Origin: Ensifer adhaerens
Lineage (GTDB): Bacteria; Pseudomonadota; Alphaproteobacteria; Rhizobiales; Rhizobiaceae
Assembly: GCF_013283195.1 (NCBI RefSeq)
Contig: NZ_JABEKT010000002.1
Location: 1,116,001-1,180,000 of the forward strand
Length of the DNA: 64,000 bases
Direction of reading: 5' to 3'
Under the pieces are notes generated by a model. It did not search any database, was not told the origin of the DNA, and was given only the letters and a program-made list of their open reading frames with translations. A program made the translations under genes and the position numbers. This document shows, in pieces, positions 8,410 through 32,441 of the stretch (the stretch's first letter is position 1; every line of letters starts with the position of its first letter).

Positions 8410-8661
8410 CTGCTCTTCCTGCTTGCTTTAGTCCGGTGCGCGGAGTTCCCCCCGCGACGAACGGCCCACCTCGAACATAGGTGAGATATTACTGGTAGCC
8501 TTAAGTGATAGTTGAATGAAACGCTAGGTTGACCGGAGCGCACCAACGAAGTTAGCTGTTAGCTAACTCCAGTTTCAGCAGTTATCGACCCACGACCAAG
8601 ACCCGTCCCGTCTTAGCTCGTTATAAGAGACACCGGCGACCATCATATTCATTCTTGCGAA

Positions 8662-8750
8662 ATTCCGAGGGGAGCACTTGACAGTGCTGAGATGGCGGTG
8701 AGCCGGACCCTTGAACCTGATCCGGGTCTTGCCGGCGTAGGAACGGGAAA
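8662..8750 (+). promoter_or_regulatory. TPP riboswitch, decayed second copy
   Basis: This is nearly identical to the functional-looking element at 14607. It has the pyrimidine-sensor strand GCTGAGATGGCGGTGAGCC and the thiamin-box core ACCCTTGAACCTGATCCGG followed by GCCGGCGTAGGAACGG. Relative to the other copy it carries an A-to-T change at 8729 in the conserved ATGCC segment and lacks one A after the aptamer. What follows is only the 3' end of a permease gene, so the element now controls no intact gene. It is very probably a relic of a duplication. Confidence 0.85.
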
Positions 8751-8782
8751 GAGCCGCTTTCGGTAAACTAATCGCGTCTTCG

Positions 8783-9199
8783 CTGTGGTTCGGCTTCGGC
8801 ATAGCCTCGAAGATCGTGATGGCGGCCATCATTATCTTCTTCCCCGTCGTTTCGGCATTCTCGGACGGTTTGCGCCGTACCGATACACAGATCCTTGATG
8901 CCGTCGCTCTGACAAAGGCAAGCCACTGGCAGACGTTGCGGTTTGTGCGGTTGCCGCTGGCGTTGCCGGGGCTTGTCACGGGCCTGCGTGTCGCGGCTCC
9001 TCTTGCGCCGCTCGGAGCCGTCGTCGGCGAATGGGTAGGCGCCTCGGCGGGCCTCGGCTTTGTGATCGTTCAGGCGAACGCCCGCATGCAGACAGATGTC
9101 GTCTTTGCCGCCATCGCCATTCTCGCCGTGCTTGCCGTCGGCCTCAGGCTTCTCGGCGATGAGGCGACCCGTCCACTCGCGCATTGGGCGCGAGAATAA
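8783..9199 (+). pseudogene. Truncated thiX-like ABC permease, 3' remnant
   Basis: From 8783 this matches the last part of the intact thiX at 15171-15590 almost base for base. The frame carries the permease EAA-loop region (DAVALTKASHWQTLRFVRLPLALPG, split by only a few substitutions) and ends WARE. The first 324 bases of thiX, together with its ribosome site, are missing. The riboswitch leader runs directly into the gene body at 8782-8784, where a shared GCT marks the join. About 440 bases present in the intact locus have been lost. The product would be a fragment of two or three membrane segments and is unlikely to work. Confidence 0.88.
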
Positions 9200-14450: not shown

Positions 14451-14606
14451 TTTTCAAGTTTGAGTGGTGCAAGCATCGCCGATGACTGGATTCGGCGAAA
14501 AAATTGACAAGAAAATTGACGTTTCGGGGGTTTTAGCGGTCTCGGAAGACCAATTTTTTAGAAGTGCCGTTGACAGTCATTCGAAATTCTCCCATAAAAT
14601 CAAACT

Positions 14607-14695
14607 ATTCCGAGGGGAGCACTTGACAGTGCTGAGATGGCGGTGAGCCGGACCCTTGAACCTGATCCGGGTCATGCCGGCGTAGGAACGGGAAA
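14607..14695 (+). promoter_or_regulatory. TPP riboswitch (THI element) of the thiamin-salvage operon
   Basis: All conserved parts of the TPP aptamer are visible. The P1 strand ATTCCGAGGGGAGC pairs with the 3' GGAACGGGAA. The P2/P3 region GTGCTGAGATGGCGGTGAGCC contains the invariant CTGAGA. The second sensor arm ACCCTTGAACCTGATCCGG is followed by GTCATGCCGGCGTAGG. It lies about 150 bases before thiX. No terminator hairpin with a T-run follows, so control by blocking translation initiation, common in Proteobacteria, is inferred. Thiamin diphosphate would shut off the salvage genes and the linked TRAP transporter. Confidence 0.95.
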
Positions 14696-14846
14696 AGAGC
14701 CGGTTTCGGCAAACTAATCGCGTCTTCGCTTTCACCTGGGTCTCCGTGATGTTTTGTCTGGAGATCGATCGTTGCTGTTTTTTGCCAAGTTGCCGCCGGA
14801 TGGCGGGTTTGCATTTTGTCCGGGTTGCTGCGTCGGCTGACCGGCG

Positions 14847-15590
14847 ATGCGCTTGGCTTTCACATTTGTTCGTAGCCTTGCTGTGCTGGCTGTCCTCTGG
14901 CAAGGGGCGGTCGTCGTGTTTGCGCTGCCGCGCTATCTGTTACCAACGCCGATCGAGGTCTTGGCTGTCTTTGCACGGCAGCCAGAATTTCTGCTTGAGC
15001 AGAGCTTTGTGACGATCGCCGAGATGCTGGCCGGGCTCGCGGTCGGCACGGCGTTCGGCGTTGCGACGGCGATCGGGCTGGCGGCTTTTCCGCGGTTCGG
15101 AAAGCTCGTCTGGCCCTTTGTGCTCGTCCTGCAGGCCTTTCCTGTCTTCGTCATCGCACCTTTGCTGGTGCTGTGGTTCGGCTTCGGCATGGTTTCGAAG
15201 ATCGTGATGGCGGCCATCATCATCTTCTTTCCGGTTGTCTCTGCGTTCTCGGACGGTCTGCGCCGTACAGATACGCAGATCCTTGATGCCGTCGCGCTGA
15301 CCAAGGCGAGCCACTGGCAGGCATTGCGGCTTGTGCGGCTGCCGCTGGCGCTGCCCGGGCTGGTGACCGGCCTGCGCATTGCCGCTCCCCTTGCGCCGCT
15401 GGGTGCCGTCGTCGGCGAATGGGTCGGCGCCTCGGCGGGGCTTGGCTTCGTGATCGTCCAGGCAAATGCCCGCATGCAGACAGATGTCGTCTTTGCCGCC
15501 ATGGCCATTCTCGCCGTGCTTGCCGTCGGCCTCAGGCTTCTCGTCGATGAGGCAACCCGTCCACTCGCGCATTGGGCGCGAGAAACCTGA
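14847..15590 (+). CDS. thiX: HMP-precursor ABC transporter permease ThiX
   Basis: A 247-residue inner-membrane permease of the SsuC/TauC/ThiX type with about six hydrophobic segments. The cytoplasmic EAA-like loop is DAVALTKASHWQALRLVRLP and the C-terminus is LGFVIVQANARM. It follows the TPP riboswitch and precedes the ThiY-type binding protein, so the substrate is inferred to be hydroxymethylpyrimidine (HMP) or a formylaminopyrimidine precursor. The start at ATG 14847 lacks a strong ribosome site. No ThiZ ATPase gene is present in the operon. A shortened copy of its 3' half lies at 8783-9199. Confidence 0.88.
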   Translation: MRLAFTFVRSLAVLAVLWQGAVVVFALPRYLLPTPIEVLAVFARQPEFLLEQSFVTIAEMLAGLAVGTAFGVATAIGLAAFPRFGKLVWPFVLVLQAFPVFVIAPLLVLWFGFGMVSKIVMAAIIIFFPVVSAFSDGLRRTDTQILDAVALTKASHWQALRLVRLPLALPGLVTGLRIAAPLAPLGAVVGEWVGASAGLGFVIVQANARMQTDVVFAAMAILAVLAVGLRLLVDEATRPLAHWARET

Positions 15591-15624
15591 ATTTTTGAGA
15601 TCGATTGGGAGAGTTCATAACATT

Positions 15625-16572
15625 ATGATCCGCAAATTCCTGCTTTCCGCCAGCCTCGCGCTCGGCGTCGTCCTTTCCGCCGGCTCCGTAATAGCGGCAG
15701 AAAAATTGACGGTGATGCTGGAGTGGTTCGTCAATCCAGACCATGCCCCCATCGTCGTCGCCAAAGAGCTCGGCCTGTTCAAAAAGGTCGGGCTCGATGT
15801 CGAGCTCTTCCCTCCGGCCGATCCCTCGAGCGTGCCGCGTCTCGTCGCTGCGGGGCAGGCTGATATCGGCGTGCACTATCAGCCGAACCTCTATCTCGAT
15901 CATGCGGCGGGTTTGCCGCTCGTTCGCATTGGCACTCTGGTCGAGACCCCGCTCAACACCGTCACCATCCTTGACGACAGTCCGATCCGCAGCCTTGCCG
16001 ACCTGAAGGGCAAGAAGATCGGCTTTTCCGTCTCCGGTTTCGAGGATGCGATGCTCGGCCGAATGCTTGCCTCGGCCGGCCTCAAGAAGGAGGACGTCGA
16101 GCTCATCAACGTCAACTTCGCCCTGTCCCCGTCGCTGATCGCTGGCAAGGTCGATGCAACGATCGGCGGCTTCCGGAATTTCGAGCTGACACAGATGCGT
16201 ATCGAGGGACATGAAGGCCGGTCATTCTTCCCCGAAGAGCATGGCGTGCCGGTTTATGACGAGCTCGTCTTCGTTGCCGACAAGGCAAAGGTTGGCGACG
16301 GGCGCTTGCCGCTCTTCCTTGCCGCGGTGGAGAGGGGGGCAATTTTCCTCACCAACCACCCTGACGAAGCCTGGAAGCTTTTCGTCAAGGCCTATCCGAA
16401 CCTTGATGACGAGCTCAACCGCAGAGCGTTCGCCGACACCCTGCCGCGCTTTGCCAAAAGGCCGGCCGCACTTGATCGTGGCCGCTACGAGCGGTTTGGC
16501 AAGTTCCTTGCTGAAAGCGGGCTGATCAGCCAGGCACCTGATGTCGAGAACATCGCGGTGGAAATCCGATGA
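15625..16572 (+). CDS. thiY: HMP-precursor binding protein ThiY (NMT1/THI5-like)
   Basis: A 315-residue periplasmic protein starting at ATG 15625, with a clean signal peptide (MIRKFLLSASLALGVVLSAG to about residue 25). The mature part opens EKLTVMLEWFVNPDHAPIVV, the NMT1/THI5-like signature that binds thiamin pyrimidine precursors. Further matches are DIGVHYQPNLYL and KKIGFSVSGFED. It delivers substrate to ThiX. The stop overlaps the thiM start (ATGATGA), so the two are translationally coupled. The frame is open for 159 bases upstream inside thiX, but that extension would destroy the signal peptide. Confidence 0.92.
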   Translation: MIRKFLLSASLALGVVLSAGSVIAAEKLTVMLEWFVNPDHAPIVVAKELGLFKKVGLDVELFPPADPSSVPRLVAAGQADIGVHYQPNLYLDHAAGLPLVRIGTLVETPLNTVTILDDSPIRSLADLKGKKIGFSVSGFEDAMLGRMLASAGLKKEDVELINVNFALSPSLIAGKVDATIGGFRNFELTQMRIEGHEGRSFFPEEHGVPVYDELVFVADKAKVGDGRLPLFLAAVERGAIFLTNHPDEAWKLFVKAYPNLDDELNRRAFADTLPRFAKRPAALDRGRYERFGKFLAESGLISQAPDVENIAVEIR

Positions 16573-17309
16573 TGAGCGAAACTGGATTCGTCGAAAATGC
16601 TGCTGCATCGCTGGCGCGGGTCCGGCAACAGCGACCCCGTGTACACTGCTTGATGAACACGGTGGTGCAGAAGTTCGTGGCGGATGGCCTCGCGGCGCTT
16701 GGCGCGATCCCCTCCATGACATCATCGACAGAAGAGGTCGAGGCCTTTGCCCGGCGCGCCGATGTGCTCGTTGTCAATCTAGGCACGCTGGATGAAGGAC
16801 GGCGCGCGGCGATCCGCCTGGCAACAGCCGTTGCGCGCGACACCCACAAGCCGTGGATCATCGATCCCGTGCATTGCGATTATTCGCCATCGCGGCTCGC
16901 TTTCGCCCGGGAACTCTCGGCTTTCGGGCCCTCCGTTGTTCGCGGCAACGCAAGCGAGATGGACATCATCGGTGATGCCAACGGTGTGTTGAAAATCAAG
17001 ACGGGGGCCGTCGATGAACTCACGCTGGATCGACATACGACCCGGATTGAGAACGGCCACCCCTTTATGGCGCAAGTCACGGGCACCGGGTGCCTCTCGG
17101 GTGCCTTGATCGCGGCCTTCATGGTCGTCCAGCCGGATCGCCTGAAGGCAGCCACGGGTGCGCTACTGACAAGCGGTATCGCCGCGGAGATTGCCGCGGA
17201 ACGATCCAGTGGTCCCGGGACCTTCGAGGCCGCCTTCCGCGATGCGCTCGCATCGCTCCGCCCTGAGGATATCATTGCCAATGCCAGGATTTCTTATGCC
17301 GAAGGTTGA
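16569..17309 (+). CDS. thiM: Hydroxyethylthiazole kinase
   Basis: A 246-residue ribokinase-like enzyme that phosphorylates the thiazole alcohol HET, salvaging the thiazole half of thiamin. Diagnostic stretches are HCLMNTVVQKFVADGLAALG, the substrate loop VVNLGTLDE, PWIIDPVHCDYSPSR, VVRGNASE and the anion-hole GTGCLSGALIAAF. It is slightly shorter than the common 260-270 residues but has no gap in the core. It overlaps thiY by four bases and thiE by fourteen. Its presence means the operon salvages thiazole as well as pyrimidine, so some uptake route for HET is expected. Confidence 0.93.
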   Translation: MMSETGFVENAAASLARVRQQRPRVHCLMNTVVQKFVADGLAALGAIPSMTSSTEEVEAFARRADVLVVNLGTLDEGRRAAIRLATAVARDTHKPWIIDPVHCDYSPSRLAFARELSAFGPSVVRGNASEMDIIGDANGVLKIKTGAVDELTLDRHTTRIENGHPFMAQVTGTGCLSGALIAAFMVVQPDRLKAATGALLTSGIAAEIAAERSSGPGTFEAAFRDALASLRPEDIIANARISYAEG

Positions 17310-17958
17310 TTATCGACTGAATGCCCTCGTCGATGCGCGCCTTGCGGACAAAGGGAATTTGGCTGACCTGGCGCGTACCGCTGCGCTCAATGGCGCGACA
17401 CTCATCCAGTATCGCGACAAGACGAACTCGACACGAGAGATGATCGAACAGGCGCGGGCAATCGGTGCTGCCCTTGCCGGAACCAGCGTGCCTTTTGTTA
17501 TCAACGATCGCGTCGATGTGGCGATCGCGGCGGGCGCCGATGGCGTCCATCTCGGGCGGGACGACATGGACGCGGCCAAGGCGCGTTCGATGATGGGCGA
17601 TGCTGCGATCATCGGCTTGACGGTCAAGAACGATGCGGATGCGCGGGCCGCGATTGGTTCGCCGATCGATTACGCCTGTATCGGTGGGGTCTACGAGACG
17701 CTGTCGAAACGCAATCCCGATCCCCCGGTCGGTCTGGAAGGGTTCGCTAGGCTTCGCGCGGCGCTTCTCACGGCTAAGCCGGATCTGCCGGTCGGAGCCA
17801 TAGCCGGGATAAATGCGCAGCGCGCCGGGGAGGTCGTTGCCGTTGGGGCCGATGGCGTCGCGGTCATTTCCGCAATCTTTGCTGCAGTGGACCCGGCGGC
17901 AGCCACCCGTGAGTTGCGGGCATGCGTCGATAGTGCGTTGAAGGAGGCTGCACGATGA
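17296..17958 (+). CDS. thiE: Thiamin-phosphate synthase
   Basis: A 220-residue TIM-barrel enzyme joining HMP-diphosphate and HET-phosphate to thiamin monophosphate. The start at 17296 ([13 protein letters not shown]) is chosen for the AGGA seven bases upstream; ATG 17281 is possible. Key matches are [11 protein letters not shown] (diphosphate and Mg2+ region), [21 protein letters not shown] with the metal-binding aspartate in [13 protein letters not shown], and [24 protein letters not shown]. It overlaps both thiM and thiD, consistent with a tight operon. Confidence 0.93.
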
Positions 17959-18764
17959 CTGCCATTGCTGTCACCATTGCGGGGTCCGATTCCGGCGGCG
18001 GAGCGGGAATCCAGGCAGACCTGAAGACTTTTTCCGCTCTCGGCGCCTATGGGGCAAGCGTCATCACGGCGATCACCGCACAGAACACCCGAGGTGTGAC
18101 GGCCGTCGAGGATATCTCGCCGGCGATTGTCGAGGCTCAAATTGATGCGGTGTTTTCGGACCTTGCTGTTGGAGCGGTGAAGATCGGCATGGTGTCTCGC
18201 GAGGAAACAATCGCCGTAATCGCCAAGGGGCTTCGGCGATATGGCAAGATGGCAGTGCTCGATCCCGTGATGGTGGCCACATCAGGTGACGCTCTACTGC
18301 GCCCGGATGCCATTGCGGCGCTTCGCGAGGAGTTGCTGCCGATGGCGCTGGTTGCAACGCCGAACCTGCCGGAAGCGGCATTGCTGACCGGGCGCTCGAT
18401 TGCGACGGATGAGACTGAGATGGCCCATCAGGCCGAGATCATTCTAAAAGCTGGCGCGCGCTCGGTTCTGATCAAAGGCGGGCACGGGGACGGCCCCGAG
18501 GCGACGGATATCTTCTTTGATGGGGGAGAGCCTGTTCGGTTGACGGCGCAGCGCATTGAAACCACGAATGACCACGGTACGGGCTGCACTCTGTCGGCGG
18601 CGATTGCCGCCGGGCTGGCACGCGGGCTTTCCTTGGCGGATGCCGTAATCGCTGCCAAGGATTATCTGCACGGTGCCATCGTTGCCGCCGGAGAACTAAA
18701 AGTCGGACAGGGGCGGGGACCGGTCCATCACTTCCACCGCTGGTGGCAGCCCGATGCTCGCTAG
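17955..18764 (+). CDS. thiD: Hydroxymethylpyrimidine / phosphomethylpyrimidine kinase
   Basis: A 269-residue ribokinase-family enzyme that phosphorylates HMP twice to HMP-diphosphate, the partner for ThiE. Matches include the N-terminal [20 protein letters not shown], the VKIGM region, [34 protein letters not shown] and the catalytic anion hole [17 protein letters not shown]. The start overlaps the thiE stop by four bases (ATGA), and its own stop overlaps the next transporter gene by eleven bases. This extends the coupling into the TRAP permease. Confidence 0.95.
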
Positions 18765-20643
18765 CATGGCGCAAGCTCTGTCGCTGCGGCTGGAGCGAGC
18801 GCTCGAGCTTGCCGGGGCGTTGACGCTTGCGGTCCTGCTCGCGACCGTGACGGTTTCCGTCGCTCTTCGGTTTGTTGCTGCAAGCGGCTTTACCGGTGCG
18901 GAAGAAGCGGCAAGTTGGCTGCTGGTAACGCTTGTCTCGATTGGGCTACCGCTCGCTTCGACGGCGAAGGGGTTGCGGATCGATTTATTCGAGGGACGGT
19001 CGGCGTCTAGAGATGGCCGTGATCACGGACCATCGGCGCGCGACTTGGAGCTCATCGTCGACGACGGGGGTACCAAGCCATTTTCGTCGAAAAAAAGCTT
19101 CATGCGCCGGGATCTGCGCACTTTGTTTTCCGGCGCCATCACTCTGGTCGCCTGCATCGTCGTGATATCCGGCAGCGGAAAGGCGGCGCTCGATCTCGGC
19201 GGTGTTTCGCCCTCGCTCGGCCTTTCCGAGGGACTGCGCCCGGCCATGCTGAGCGCCGGAGGAGTGCTGGCGATTGTCGCGATCCTGCTCCGCCACGTCG
19301 CGGACGGCCGGCTTGTCGCGTTCGCCTCGATGCTTGCGATTGCTGTGGGATTACATTGGGCGGTCGGCGCGGTGCCACCTTTGGACCTGGTGTCGCCGAG
19401 CTTCATGCTGTGCTGTCTTGCACTTGTGGCAATTCTCGCCGGAACGCCGCTCCCCCATGCTTTCATCGCTGCGGCCTATGTTACCGTCGCATTCGGCGCG
19501 CCGATGCCGGAGGAGGCGATGGCGGCGACCACATTGTCCGGCCTGTCGCGCTATCTTCTGACCGCCATTCCATTTTTCCTGCTCGCCGGCGCGCTTTTGA
19601 CTGCGTCAGGGATCGCCAGTGACCTAGTTTGCTTTGCCGCCGCCCTTGTCGGCCACCGCCGCGCCGGGCTCGGTCAAACCGTACTGCTGACAGGTGTTCT
19701 GTTTTCCGGAGCCTCCGGCTCGTCGATCGCCAATGCGGCCTTCGGCACTGCCGCCTTCATGCCGCAGCTAACAGCGCACGGCACGCCGCCTGCGCGCGCC
19801 GGCGCGCTGATTGCTGCCGTCTCGGTGCTCGACAATATCATCCCGCCATCGATCGCCTTTCTGATTCTGGCGGCAGCCGCGGACTTGTCGACCGGCAAGC
19901 TTCTGGCCGGGGGCTTCGTGGCGGGTCTGCTCATGGCAGCTACGCTTGCCGTTGCCATCCACGTAAACGGCGCGACGACGGCGCGCACCGCCAGGGCATC
20001 CGCCGGAGAGTCCCGACGGCTCGGTGTACGGGCGCTGCCCGCCTTCGGTCTCGGAATCATCGTCGTCGCCGGTATTCGCGCCGGCGTGGTCTCACCCACG
20101 GAAGCTGCAGCGCTTGCGGCGGCCTATACCCTGATCGCAGCTTTCTTGAAGCGGACAGCCGTTTACGAGGTCTGCGCCGCTTTCCGCCAATCGGCGCGCG
20201 AAACCACCGCGATCCTGCTGTTGATCGGTTCGGCCGCGCCCTTCGCATTTCTCATCGCGGTTGATGGCGTTGCGGCTCACCTGTCGTCTGCAGCGAGTTG
20301 GCTCGGGTCCAATCCGTTCCTTGTGATTGCCGCGCTCAATCCCCTCTTGCTCGGTGTTGGGCTCTTCCTCGATATCGGCGCAGCGATCCTGCTGTTCGCG
20401 CCCTTGACGCTGCCGATCGCCGTTTCCGCCGGCATCGATCCAATTCATTTCGGCGTCATCCTGGTCGTCAATCTGATGATCGGCGGTTTGACACCACCCG
20501 TCGGCATCCTCGTGCAGACCGTCGGCAACGCTTCCGGCGTGCCCGCGGTCGCGCTGTTTGCCGCGTCGCGGCCCTATCTGCTCGCACTGTTATCGGCACT
20601 TGGACTTCTCAGTTTTTCCGCAGCACTCGTTGCCTGTTTTTGA
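18754..20643 (+). CDS. Fused TRAP transporter permease (DctQ-DctM)
   Basis: A 629-residue membrane protein. The first about 200 residues hold the small DctQ-like subunit (VTVSVALRFVAASGFTGAEEAASWLLV), and the rest is the large DctM-like transport subunit (LSGLSRYLLTAIPFFLLAGA, GASGSSIANAAFGTAAFMPQ, DNIIPPSIAFLILA, NLMIGGLTPPVGILVQTVG). Fused QM permeases are a known TRAP arrangement and move organic acids or amphipathic substrates using an ion gradient. The gene overlaps thiD by eleven bases, so it falls under the same TPP riboswitch. A thiamin precursor such as HET or its carboxylate is the inferred cargo; the sequence does not prove it. Confidence 0.88.
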   Translation: MLASMAQALSLRLERALELAGALTLAVLLATVTVSVALRFVAASGFTGAEEAASWLLVTLVSIGLPLASTAKGLRIDLFEGRSASRDGRDHGPSARDLELIVDDGGTKPFSSKKSFMRRDLRTLFSGAITLVACIVVISGSGKAALDLGGVSPSLGLSEGLRPAMLSAGGVLAIVAILLRHVADGRLVAFASMLAIAVGLHWAVGAVPPLDLVSPSFMLCCLALVAILAGTPLPHAFIAAAYVTVAFGAPMPEEAMAATTLSGLSRYLLTAIPFFLLAGALLTASGIASDLVCFAAALVGHRRAGLGQTVLLTGVLFSGASGSSIANAAFGTAAFMPQLTAHGTPPARAGALIAAVSVLDNIIPPSIAFLILAAAADLSTGKLLAGGFVAGLLMAATLAVAIHVNGATTARTARASAGESRRLGVRALPAFGLGIIVVAGIRAGVVSPTEAAALAAAYTLIAAFLKRTAVYEVCAAFRQSARETTAILLLIGSAAPFAFLIAVDGVAAHLSSAASWLGSNPFLVIAALNPLLLGVGLFLDIGAAILLFAPLTLPIAVSAGIDPIHFGVILVVNLMIGGLTPPVGILVQTVGNASGVPAVALFAASRPYLLALLSALGLLSFSAALVACF

Positions 20644-20663
20644 ACCCTTTGGGAGGGATCGAA

Positions 20664-21665
20664 ATGCTTCGCCTCAATCGCCGTGCGTTCAACCTGAGCC
20701 TGCTTGCCACCGGTGCCGCAGCGCTTGCTACCCCGGCTTTGACGGGCCAGGCCTCCGCCGCACGCCCAGTGCTCATCGCTTCGCTGCTGGGCGAAAACAA
20801 ACCGGAAACCAAGGTCTGGCTCAAGATCCGTGACCTCGTCGAGGCCGCGCTTCCAGGGCGGTTTGCCTTCAACATTGTCCCGAACGCGGCCCTTGGGGGC
20901 GAGAAAGATGTCAACGAGGGGCTGCGGTTGGGCGCCATCCAGGGGAGCTTGTCCACTCTGTCGGCCCTATCTGCCTGGGTGCCCGAGAGCCAGCTCTTCG
21001 ATATGCCGTTTCTCTTCCGCGATGCCGACCATGTCCGCGCGGCAGTCACTTCGAACGCTGGTGACGCGCTGAAGGTGAAGCTTGAGGGTGAGGGCTTCAT
21101 CGTTGGAGATTATGTCAACTACGGTGCGCGGCATCTGCTCGCCAAGGAACCCTTGATGCATCCCGGCGATGTTGCCGGAAAGAGATTGCGCGTCATCCAG
21201 AGCCCGCTTCATGCGGCGCTATGGGAGAGCTTCGGCGCCGTCTCGGTCGGCCTGCCGATCACCGAGACATATAACGCGCTTGCAACGGGCGTCGTCGACG
21301 CCATGGACCTGACGAAGTCGGCATATGCCGGATTCAAGCTCTACGAAGTCGTGCCTGACGTGATCGAGACTGGCCACATCTGGGCATCCGGCGCCATCGT
21401 CTTTGCCAAACCCTTCTGGAACAGCCTGACATCTGAGGAGCGGGACGTCTTCCGGCATGCAGCTATAGAGGGCGCGCGGCATTTCAACGCATTGATCGTT
21501 GCCGATGAGGCTGCCTCTGTCGAAACGGCGAAGGCTGCCGGTGCGCGCTTGCATGCCGCCGAAGATCGCGAAGACTGGGTCGCGGGCGCACGAAAGGTTT
21601 GGGCGGCCTACGCCGCGAAGGTCGGCGGCATGGAAGCAATCGAGTCTGTGCAGGCAATGGGTTAG
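20664..21665 (+). CDS. TRAP transporter solute-binding protein, DctP family
   Basis: A 333-residue periplasmic binding protein starting at ATG 20664, with the ribosome site GGGAGG seven bases upstream. A twin-arginine-like leader (RLNRRAFNLSLLATGAAALA) precedes the DctP fold: PNAALGGEKDVNEGLRLG, LFDMPFLFRDADHVRAAV, KRLRVIQSPLHAALWESFGA and GLPITETYNALATGVVDAMD, the substrate-handling motif of the family. It follows the fused permease by 20 bases and is the last gene of the riboswitch-led operon. Presence of both TRAP parts suggests a complete importer. Confidence 0.9.
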   Translation: MLRLNRRAFNLSLLATGAAALATPALTGQASAARPVLIASLLGENKPETKVWLKIRDLVEAALPGRFAFNIVPNAALGGEKDVNEGLRLGAIQGSLSTLSALSAWVPESQLFDMPFLFRDADHVRAAVTSNAGDALKVKLEGEGFIVGDYVNYGARHLLAKEPLMHPGDVAGKRLRVIQSPLHAALWESFGAVSVGLPITETYNALATGVVDAMDLTKSAYAGFKLYEVVPDVIETGHIWASGAIVFAKPFWNSLTSEERDVFRHAAIEGARHFNALIVADEAASVETAKAAGARLHAAEDREDWVAGARKVWAAYAAKVGGMEAIESVQAMG

Positions 21666-21836
21666 GATAGCTTGGCCGGTAAGGCGCGAAAGCTGAAATC
21701 TTCCTGCTGTTTCATAATATTGCTAGACGTTATGACCGTGGTCTGAGCGGCGGCCCGTCCTAGTCTTTGCAGCTGTAAAGCAAACGGGGGTTGCTTGGGA
21801 GTGCCGAGCCGAGCCCCAGCAAGGAAAGGACGGACC

Positions 21837-22949
21837 ATGACCGAGGATAGCGTTTTTTACGTCGGTGTCGATGTCTCGAAAGCCAAGCACGCGATCGCAA
21901 TTGCCGAGAGCGGACGCAATGGAGAAGTTCGGTATTTCGGCGAGATCGAGGCGACGCCGGCGGCCGTGGAACGGTTCGTGCGCAAGTTGGAGAGCAAGTC
22001 TCGACGCCTGCACTTCTGCTACGAAGCGGGTCCGACCGGTTATGGGCTTTATCGCCAGCTCGTTGAACTCGGCCACCGCTGTGATGTCGTCGCGCCCTCG
22101 CTGATCCCGAAGCGGGCGGGCGAACGGGTCAAGACGAACCGGCGCGATGCGGTCAGCCTGGCGCGGCTTTTGCGGGCAGATGAGTTGAAGGGAATATGGG
22201 TTCCCGACACGGTGCATGAAGCGGTGCGCGATCTGGTGCGGGTGCGGGCCGCAGCGAGCGAAGATTTGCGCAAGAAACGCCAGCAACTGCTCTCGTTCCT
22301 GCTGCGCCATGGCCGCGTGTTTACTGGCCACAAGAATTGGAGCCGTGCGCATGTCCGCTGGCTGGCGTCACAGAAGTTCGATCACCCGGTCCAGCAAATC
22401 GTCTTCCAGGACCAGATCGACGCGATCACCGATGCGCAGAACCGGCTGGCGCGGCTGGATGCTCAGCTGGCCGAGCTGGTGCCGAGTTGGTCTATGGCAG
22501 CGGTGGTCACGGCCTATCAGGCGCTTCGCGGCGTCTCTTTCCTTGTTGCCGTCACCTTCGTCAGCCAAGTCGGCGATGTACGCCGCTTCGACAACCCGCG
22601 GCAGTTGATGGCTTTCCTGGGCCTCGTACCCTCGGAACGGTCGACTGGCGAGACGGTCAAACGCGGCGGCCTGACGCTGGCCGGAAACCGCCGTGCGCGC
22701 CGCGTCCTGGTCGAGGGCGCCTGGAGCTATCGCCATGCCGCCAGGGTGACGGAAACCATTCGCGTCCGGCTTGAGGGTCTGCCGAAGGCGGTGCGGGAGA
22801 TCGCCTGGAAAGCGCAGACGCGGCTGTGCGGCCGCTACCGGCGCCTGACGGCTGCGGGCAAGAAAAACCCCATCGTCGTTGCGGCGATCGCGCGCGAGAT
22901 GGCAGCGTTCCTGTGGGCCATCGGCCACCAGGTCGAACCGGTGCGCTGA
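21837..22949 (+). CDS. IS110-family transposase (DEDD recombinase)
   Basis: A 370-residue protein starting at ATG 21837, with AAGGA upstream. The N-terminal RuvC-like DEDD domain shows VGVDVSKAKHAIAIAES, CYEAGPTGYGLYRQL and KTNRRDAVSLARLLRADELK. After a helical linker, the C-terminal Transposase_20 domain has FLGLVPSERSTGE and KRGGLTLAGNRRARRVLVEG. Length and domain order fit a complete enzyme. Known relatives are guided by a bridge RNA from the element's non-coding end; that RNA is not proven here. Confidence 0.93.
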   Translation: MTEDSVFYVGVDVSKAKHAIAIAESGRNGEVRYFGEIEATPAAVERFVRKLESKSRRLHFCYEAGPTGYGLYRQLVELGHRCDVVAPSLIPKRAGERVKTNRRDAVSLARLLRADELKGIWVPDTVHEAVRDLVRVRAAASEDLRKKRQQLLSFLLRHGRVFTGHKNWSRAHVRWLASQKFDHPVQQIVFQDQIDAITDAQNRLARLDAQLAELVPSWSMAAVVTAYQALRGVSFLVAVTFVSQVGDVRRFDNPRQLMAFLGLVPSERSTGETVKRGGLTLAGNRRARRVLVEGAWSYRHAARVTETIRVRLEGLPKAVREIAWKAQTRLCGRYRRLTAAGKKNPIVVAAIAREMAAFLWAIGHQVEPVR

Positions 22950-31078: not shown

Positions 31079-32003
31079 GCTTACGTTTCTCCGGTCCGTG
31101 ATTTCTTTTGGATCACCAATCCCAATTGCGTCAAAAGAGGTTGAAACTGTGTCCGAAGCGACCCTTGGTGATCAAGATCGATAGTACACCGGCGTCATCT
31201 GCAGCAGCGAGCCTCGATAAGCCGACTGCTGCCTCAGCTCACACTGAACGGGCCGTCGGGAAGGTTGAGACCGAAGCGGCTAGCCTTGGCGCGGTGTTGA
31301 ACGAGGCTGGCTACGATGCCCGGAAGGCTGAATAACAGAAAAATTCATAAGTTGTGTCGTCGCGCTATTGCGATCAGGTTTGAATTGAGCATCATCGTAG
31401 CGTCTGTGAATTCGAACGCTCAGACGGGGCCCTTTCTCTTGCTTGCAGGAGAAGGGGCCTTTTCGTCTCCACATGCGCTACGACGCTAGCCAAGCGAACC
31501 ATCGAGCGGCTTCAGAGTCCCGCCATCGTACGCATCTTCTGGAACCTCGGCGGCCGAAGGGGCTGCTGGCGGCGTTTTTCAAGCCACCATACGAGCGCCA
31601 CTATGTCTTCTTCCATGCATTCTGCACGAGCGGGGGATCTGCCTGTTAGGCTCATGACGATCTGGTGGCGAAGGGTGACATCTCTCGGGAAAGCGGAGCG
31701 GCTTGCCGGGGGTGGTCGGTCCCGGTTCCCGGCCTGCGGCCGGCGCTTGCGCTGAACCTCCTGCGGCGACCCTTTTAACCGGTCAAGCCGCGCGCGAACG
31801 GGCTCTGGCCGCAATGGCGGCCGCCGCCTGGTACGCTCATCCTAGTTTGGTCCGTGCAGCATGACCAGCGTGGGCACACACGCGCCCGAAGCCAGTTTCA
31901 CGGAGATGCCCAGCCGACTGGGCACCAGGCGCCGTGCGGTCGCGTTGGCGCATTTGATCTCGCATTGTGCGCTCGTTAAGCCATGCGCTTCCGCAGAACG
32001 TCT
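31079..32003. other. Long stretch without a supported gene
   Basis: A 75-codon frame at 31108-31335 (ending LNEAGYDARKAE) has no ribosome site or known relative. The part from 31475 to 31975 contains short frames on both strands that look random. Apart from a terminator-like hairpin near 31430 and the out-of-frame tail of hicB at 31976-32003, nothing can be assigned. Position and texture suggest decayed plasmid DNA. Confidence 0.5.
31430..31465 (+). terminator. Rho-independent terminator-like hairpin
   Basis: GGCCCTTTCTC (31430-31440) pairs with GAGAAGGGGCC (31451-31461) with one mismatch, over a ten-base loop, and TTTT follows. On the plus strand this is a good terminator shape; no clear gene ends upstream. 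Confidence 0.6.
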
Positions 32004-32300
32004 TCAGCGAGTGAAACGTTGACGCGAACTGCCTTTTTCGCCGCAGTCTTCATCGCAACGATGAATGGCCACACCGTCTTTATTTTCAAGGTCTGACATA
32101 ACATTTTCAAGGCTAGATGGCTCAGGAATAGCCTCCCCGTCCTCTACAAGACCTTCGACGTGCAGCGCCAAGGCTTCCTCGACCTTCGCGCGCGCCTCAT
32201 CGAGGTTGGTACCGGCGGTTACGACACCAGGAAAATCGGGAAAGGAAGCACCGTAGTCACTGTCGGCGTCCTTGTGGATCAGTCCAATATAGTTGCGCAT
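31976..32300 (-). pseudogene. hicB: HicB-like antitoxin, frameshifted near its 3' end
   Basis: From ATG 32300 the frame gives MRNYIGLIHKDADSDYGASF and PDFPGVVTAGTNLDEARAKV, the HicB RNase-H-like antitoxin fold. After GVAI it runs out of family sequence and stops at 32004. The neighbouring frame holds the missing end, FIVAMKTAAKKAVRVNVSLAE then DVLRKRMA, the ribbon-helix-helix-like tail (written here in two parts). A single-base shift near 32070 thus breaks the DNA-binding region. An ATG-less GTG at 32309 would add three residues. Confidence 0.75.
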
Positions 32301-32305
32301 GGTCG

Positions 32306-32404
32306 TCACCTCAGTTTCGAGCCGGATTGCTTGATCGGGATATCCCTTTTTGGATGCGGGACCGTAACCCGGCCAGGCTTCGTTTTTTAGGAAGACCCAA
32401 GCTA
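32306..32404 (-). pseudogene. hicA 3' remnant
   Basis: Upstream of hicB one frame ends KTKPGRVTVPHPKRDIPIKQ then SGSKLR, with a TGA overlapping the hicB start region. This is the C-terminal half of a HicA mRNA interferase. A stop codon precedes it and the N-terminal half, including the catalytic histidine region, is missing. Gene order hicA-hicB is the usual one. Confidence 0.7.
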
Positions 32405-32441
32405 TCTGTTTGATGTTCGGTTGTTTTGCGGGTGTTTCGCG

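Follow-up and report, generated by a model that had tools for sequence, protein, structure and literature searches.

A TRAP transporter within a TPP-riboswitch thiamin-salvage operon of Ensifer adhaerens as a candidate importer of an acid-bearing thiazole precursor

What does a tripartite ATP-independent periplasmic (TRAP) transporter carry when its genes lie in an operon for thiamin salvage? The question is raised by a stretch of 64,000 nucleotides from Ensifer adhaerens (the window; G000:C12:1116001-1180000), part of a 7.07 Mb genome that is 99.95% complete, in which a thiamin pyrophosphate (TPP) riboswitch aptamer is followed, on the + strand throughout, by thiX, thiY, thiM, thiE, thiD and the TRAP genes dctQM and dctP. 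A first-pass annotation of the sequence had suggested that the TRAP system brings in a thiazole precursor or thiamin itself. We think it reasonably likely that it imports an acid-bearing, thiazole-type precursor of vitamin B1, most likely 5-(2-hydroxyethyl)-4-methylthiazole-2-carboxylate (cHET), and so replaces the missing thiazole-synthesis protein ThiG.

No match to ThiG was found in the window's genome by a search that matched 14 of 14 controls, 13 of them above the cut-off. The genome does encode thiC and a thiBPQ set with its own riboswitch (thiB and thiP exceed their cut-offs; thiQ scores 240.2 against a cut-off of 245.05). Because ThiC is present and ThiG gave no match, thiazole appears to be the missing half of the vitamin. 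In a survey of 16 genomes of the genus, ThiG was lacking in two only, the window's genome and G062, which carries the related locus L016. E. oleiphilus carries a riboswitch-thiO-thiS-thiG-thiE operon within a region that is piecewise colinear with 18.4-36.9 kb of the window; between colinear flanks, its counterpart in the window is a site of 524 bases (31917-32440) devoid of thi genes, about 10 kb away from the TRAP genes. E. canadensis and E. adhaerens SD006 also have a thiO-thiS-thiG-thiE operon, near short homologues of the window's 31.7-31.9 kb. Since these relatives possess the operon and ThiG occurs in 14 of the 16 genus members, we infer that it was lost here rather than gained by the others. 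Judged by eye, a reading frame inside the 524-base site (32004-32309) is HicB-like.

The TRAP system also tends to occur where ThiG does not. In an even sample of 247 genomes of the family, the DctP subfamily was scored at an E value of 1e-110 or better and the short form of ThiM encoded in the window (A3) at 1e-80; the subfamily was found in 25 genomes, the short ThiM in 18 and ThiG in 118. ThiG was absent from 21 of the 25 subfamily carriers versus 108 of the 222 others (p 0.001). The subfamily was present in 15 of the 18 short-ThiM genomes and in 10 of the 229 others (p 6e-15). When the ten genomes with adjacent genes were excluded, it was still found in five of eight short-ThiM genomes (p 3e-5), among them G263, which has a copy with its own riboswitch, and G268, probably a single operon split across two contigs. 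Within the 18 short-ThiM genomes, all 13 that lack ThiG carried the subfamily, compared with two of the five that have it (p 0.012). Clear ThiG was found in two (G001 and G004) of the 17 genomes reached through riboswitch-linked TRAP loci (G001-G017), with a weak partial match in G015, and in 12 of the 30 reached through unlinked loci (G018-G047), a group in which G037 also holds a linked copy, G046 probably does and G042 has a broken one. The first-pass annotation had proposed testing whether TRAP pairs downstream of TPP riboswitches co-occur with thiM. Besides the short-ThiM counts, 46 of the 48 genomes that carry the subfamily have a ThiM scoring above the cut-off, a count over carriers only. 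Sampled across the whole order, the subfamily is uncommon (4 of 199).

Short ThiM itself (16569-17309, + strand) matches PF02110 (HK) and NF006830 in two stretches and lacks 27 mid-protein residues of the canonical protein in an alignment with four usable canonical ThiM. It is present in several genera and may act on a different substrate from the canonical enzyme.

Conservation outside this strain had been set as a further check, and the link between riboswitch and TRAP genes extends across genera. It was seen in the window and in the loci L001-L004, and a search of plasmid DNA recovered the complete arrangement from Ensifer canadensis, at 84% identity, and from Rhizobium sp. SSA_523, Allorhizobium pseudoryzae and R. 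rhizoryzae, at 66-68%. A protein scan of genome contigs gave 165 DctP relatives, of which the best 80 were retained; 16 of these 80 have a TPP riboswitch upstream, seven in the full TPP-thiXYMED-dctQM-dctP operon and nine in a TPP-NIPSNAP-dctQM-dctP arrangement devoid of thi genes (seven labelled Pleomorphomonas and two metagenome-assembled genomes (MAGs) labelled Proteobacteria bacterium). One further case has the TRAP genes behind thiE-thiD at a contig edge (L065). The third layout, TPP-dctQM-dctP alone, is that of the G263 copy (L159), in a genome with a separate TPP-thiXYMED operon elsewhere. The idea that the link is an accident of one strain was ruled out by this conservation in three riboswitch layouts. 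In a tree of 99 DctP proteins with long branches on several rows, the 33 linked proteins, two of which (L085 and L160) were counted as linked only from their position at a contig end, require seven label changes, and a single clade for them is rejected (p-AU 0.011). Riboswitch linkage was thus either recruited more than once or repeatedly lost. Two observations on these loci may be recorded here. In Pleomorphomonas the NIPSNAP-family gene (L026:7843-8175) sits between riboswitch and dctQM, and such a gene also adjoins TRAP genes that have no riboswitch in two Kaistia loci, in Terrarubrum and in one Rhodoferax MAG. L055, in a record labelled Bacillus subtilis SK6B4, encodes a DctP nearly identical to that of Pseudochrobactrum, pointing to a mislabelled or contaminated assembly.

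The nature of the cargo is suggested by the proteins themselves. dctQM (18754-20643, + strand) encodes a fused permease of 629 residues that matches PF06808 with 247.7 bits and PF04290 with 24.3 bits (cut-off 28.3); the DctQ half is thus weakly recognised, yet the entire protein aligns with six fused relatives. After a spacing of 20 bases comes dctP (20664-21665, + strand; PF03480, 182.5 bits), encoding the solute-binding protein, 95% identical to the SD006 copy. The DctP, DctQ and DctM parts of a DctP-type TRAP system are all present. The predicted structure of DctP (mean predicted local distance difference test score, pLDDT, 85.8) has the TRAP binding-protein fold, and the 50 PDB matches listed for the model are all TRAP binding proteins by title, with template modelling (TM) scores of at most 0.85 over the query length. 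Two arginines, R156 and R176, are invariant in the 101 DctP sequences compared and correspond in alignment to R152 and R173 of the binding protein 4p47; Ile199 occupies the position of the aromatic residue 196 of 4p47. Hydroxyethylthiazole (HET), hydroxymethylpyrimidine (HMP) and thiamin bear no acid group, and cHET bears one. In the accessible parts of the papers, to which all our citations refer, R173 of 4p47 is described as forming a salt bridge with the ligand carboxylate, assisted by R152 and N213 (PMC11668362), and its equivalent in SiaP, Arg-147, as limiting that protein to acids (PMC4646407). Because DctP keeps counterparts of both arginines that hold carboxylates in other TRAP proteins, cHET is favoured over HET, HMP and thiamin. 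There is also precedent for its use: for E. coli without ThiG, sub-picomolar cHET is reported to suffice, against at least 10^6 pM HET; Ostreococcus tauri requires ThiM for cHET use; and marine algae use the compound (PMC5899164). The arginine pair, the acid group and this use by E. coli and O. tauri together make cHET the best candidate.

In the scheme that we favour, low TPP would permit expression of the operon, as expected from the riboswitch family. ThiXY would import the pyrimidine with an ATPase encoded elsewhere, while the two arginines of DctP would capture the acid-bearing thiazole precursor, most likely cHET, and DctQM would carry it inward, driven by an ion gradient. The imported thiazole would be phosphorylated by the short ThiM and coupled by ThiE to pyrimidine, either phosphorylated by ThiD or made by ThiC, to give thiamin phosphate, so that the importer would substitute for the absent ThiG. 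In this scheme the ligand, the transport step, repression by TPP and phosphorylation by the short ThiM are what we infer. A more ambitious version can be offered only tentatively: that the system is a high-affinity cHET importer recruited more than once from TRAP transporters of organosulfur acids to TPP control, replacing ThiG in bacteria that swap thiazole synthesis for scavenging, with a short ThiM adapted to cHET.

Several observations weigh against cHET import in place of synthesis. Of ThiG, Thi4-type thiazole synthase, ThiW and ThiU, the genome search covered the first only. ThiG coexists with an intact, linked TRAP system in G001 (locus L015), G004 (Pleomorphomonas) and G457 (R. rhizoryzae), and two genomes with a short ThiM and no ThiG, G288 and G383 (L030 and L023), have the TRAP genes with no TPP aptamer nearby. 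Among the 18 short-ThiM genomes, the relation of riboswitch linkage to ThiG reaches p 0.12 when linkage is scored by adjacency and p 0.02-0.05 when G263 is scored as linked and G268 either way. All these association p values ignore kinship, and the genomes are related. In the binding site, DctP has Leu216 where 4p47 has Asn213, the third residue that supports the carboxylate. Finally, an SsuD-like monooxygenase lies near 43 of 91 DctP entries, 37 of which also have an SsuA-like protein, and these SsuD-linked DctP carry the identical arginine pair, so that organosulfur acids may in general be ligands of the subfamily.

These last points lead to the best of the alternatives, in our estimate an unlikely one: that the cargo is an organosulfur acid, for example a sulfonate, structurally unrelated to thiamin, and that riboswitch operons captured the transporter because thiamin status is linked with sulfur supply or with a use of the acid that depends on TPP. 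Apart from the SsuD-like neighbours and an arginine pair common to all contexts, it can draw on an isethionate TRAP protein that employs the same pair (PMC11668362). Two SsuD-like examples that were classified score 420-432 bits, under the cut-offs for alkanesulfonate monooxygenase. The window's own genome has an SsuD-linked TRAP copy (C12:1223282, L155), and such operons in other rhizobia (L020, L042 and L155) share the TRAP subfamily and arginines of the window's operon but differ from it in having a flavin monooxygenase neighbour and no riboswitch pattern. More broadly, no riboswitch pattern was found within 9 kb upstream of the SsuD-neighbouring entries, and the range searched around the riboswitch-linked copies yielded no SsuD-like gene; 25 of the 91 entries lie in neither context. 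No DctP position that separates riboswitch-linked from SsuD-linked proteins is uniform across all linked groups, the substitutions being scattered. An unrelated organosulfur acid would not predict that riboswitch linkage occurs in several branches, nor the ties to ThiG absence and the short ThiM. As a separate observation, operons of SsuA-like, SsuD-like and TRAP genes are widespread in rhizobia (L020:6158-8133, L155:3921-8778), and the SsuA-like protein, judged by eye, seemingly lacks a signal peptide.

A carboxylated or sulfonated relative of HMP, imported to complement ThiXY, seems less probable still. Pyrimidine may often be needed too, for ThiC gave no match in 14 of the 17 linked genomes (G001-G017), being full in G001 and G002 and a weaker partial match in G015, and pyrimidine methanesulfonate would suit a transporter with sulfonate-type relatives. 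The thiXYMED layouts, however, already include ThiXY in the operon, and the window's genome has ThiC and lacks a ThiG match, which makes thiazole the missing half. Import of intact thiamin, or of thiamin acetic acid or another product of its oxidation, is very improbable: thiamin importers are typically riboswitch-controlled, but this genome has a separate thiBPQ with a riboswitch, thiM, thiE and thiD would be superfluous for imported thiamin, and the DctP arginines point to acids. Of the two ligands first proposed, then, the thiazole precursor gains from the conservation in three layouts, the missing ThiG and the association of the subfamily with ThiG absence, while thiamin itself loses to the genome's own thiBPQ and the carboxylate-holding arginines.

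The comparison within the genus is consistent with a thiazole precursor as cargo. Six genus genomes have a thiXYMED operon accompanied by TRAP genes, whole or as remnants. The TRAP genes are intact in both genomes that lack ThiG and broken in three of the four carriers that have it, SD006 alone being intact. In E. canadensis dctQM is frameshifted, with several frame-changing length differences for which sequencing errors are possible; E. oleiphilus, which carries about 1 kb with a transposase-like frame, has lost about 1.8 kb that takes in the 3' third of dctQM and the greater part of dctP; in G059 dctQM and half of dctP are gone. With six genomes (Fisher's p 0.4) the pattern serves as an illustration. 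Elsewhere the TRAP genes are under purifying selection: the ratio of nonsynonymous to synonymous substitution rates (dN/dS) is 0.129 for dctQM and 0.087 for dctP between the window and L016, next to 0.05-0.14 for the thi genes, and 0.09-0.18 among the intact TRAP copies compared. That the TRAP genes are mere passengers on the transcript with no thiamin role, as their breakage in three relatives could suggest, is hardly credible given these ratios, a linkage that spans several layouts and branches, and decay that in the genus is confined to ThiG-keeping genomes. The DctQ half contains a variable loop (approximately 19012-19104; about 31 residues). That this loop is a sign of decay was considered and ruled out, since intact L015 and L016 have it as well, with in-frame length differences; the loop is absent from six other relatives.

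How would a TRAP importer of a thiazole precursor relate to known systems? With DctP-type TRAP transporters such as SiaPQM and IseP it shares the fold, the DctQ and DctM parts and the arginine pair, and it differs from them in its fused DctQM, in Leu216 and Ile199 in place of Asn213 and the aromatic 196 of 4p47, and in its TPP-riboswitch control. In a phage collection, only distant TRAP proteins were found. ThiW and ThiU are secondary or energy-coupling factor (ECF) carriers. Both are predicted HET importers, and so likewise proposed for uptake of the thiazole half, ThiW occurring in 64% of HET auxotrophs and hence covering only part of them; the accessible text of PMC6593275 describes neither as TRAP. 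The importers that the first-pass annotation named as standard, ThiW among them and none a TRAP system, do not include ThiU. ThiXYZ, ThiBPQ, ThiV, CytX, YkoEDC and ThiT import thiamin or pyrimidine, several under TPP-riboswitch control, and no TRAP system is among the importers listed in the accessible parts of PMC10881298, PMC12236431 and PMC6593275. No TRAP importer of a thiamin precursor appeared in the accessible open-access literature on thiamin, TRAP and thiazole import, the supplement of PMC3766115 (19 TPP-controlled transporter orthologs) excepted, nor in the parts seen of PMC9870897, PMC6478431, PMC2258182, PMC3766115, PMC6593275, PMC5874261 and PMC7997004. Putative transporters do appear in two of these papers, one for HET, left unnamed, in PMC5874261 and one for thiazole, belonging to a class other than TRAP, in PMC7997004; the available text of PMC5899164 names no cHET importer. 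The operon thus probably puts a transporter class already known to a new use connected with vitamins. If so, vitamin precursors would join the TRAP substrate range, and genome surveys would better recognise thiazole scavengers. DctP can be purified, which makes the question directly testable.

The operon itself is largely as first described. The complete TPP aptamer (RF00059, + strand) was confirmed by cmscan with 77.2 bits over the full model (1-105), at 14603-14705 rather than from 14607, and Pfam and NCBIfam models bear out the gene order. thiX (14847-15590; PF00528, BPD_transp_1), for an ABC (ATP-binding cassette) permease of a pyrimidine importer, is 89-96% identical to its counterparts in L001, L015 and L016. 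It is followed, also on the + strand, by thiY for an NMT1/THI5-like binding protein (15625-16572; PF09084, 239.7 bits) and, beyond thiM, by thiE for thiamin phosphate synthase (17296-17958; TIGR00693, 174 bits), with a second in-frame ATG at 17281, and thiD for an HMP(-P) kinase (17955-18764; TIGR00097, 323.8 bits). The end of thiD overlaps the start of dctQM by 11 bases (18754-18764), as had been noted. With a complete aptamer 5' of the first gene, codirectional genes and no large gaps, the locus has the make-up of a TPP regulon, and thiX to dctP are likely expressed as a single transcript. A complete ThiXYZ importer is not encoded in the operon, among whose reading frames, to which the search for thiZ was confined, no ATPase gene was found. 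The Chloroflexi riboflavin transporter RibXY, a ThiXY-like pair with a vitamin riboswitch and no ATPase gene (PMC3766115, accessible part), is not a TRAP system and parallels the missing thiZ only. Pattern scans gave 15 terminator-like sites versus 8.2 expected from shuffles, one of them at the 3' end of dctQM (20620-20633, a 5-pair stem), and three promoter-like sites versus 1.2 expected, of which one lies in the gap from thiX to thiY (15595-15623, + strand). Predicted folding of the leader did not stand out from that of shuffled sequences (z 0.03), and no expression platform was recognised in it.

The genome has four TPP aptamers, at the thiXYMED-TRAP operon, a partial duplicate of its head, thiBPQ and thiC. 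The duplicate lies upstream in the window and comprises an aptamer (8658-8760, + strand; 72.9 bits), 96.8% identical to that of the operon over 124 bases, and behind it a truncated thiX (8783-9199, + strand) corresponding to residues 109-246, with 94.9% identity in protein and 89.9% in DNA over 415 bases. This fusion of an aptamer to the 3' part of thiX (8658-9199) is likely non-functional. Immediately 3' of dctP lies a transposase-like gene (21795-22949), of IS110 type as judged by eye.

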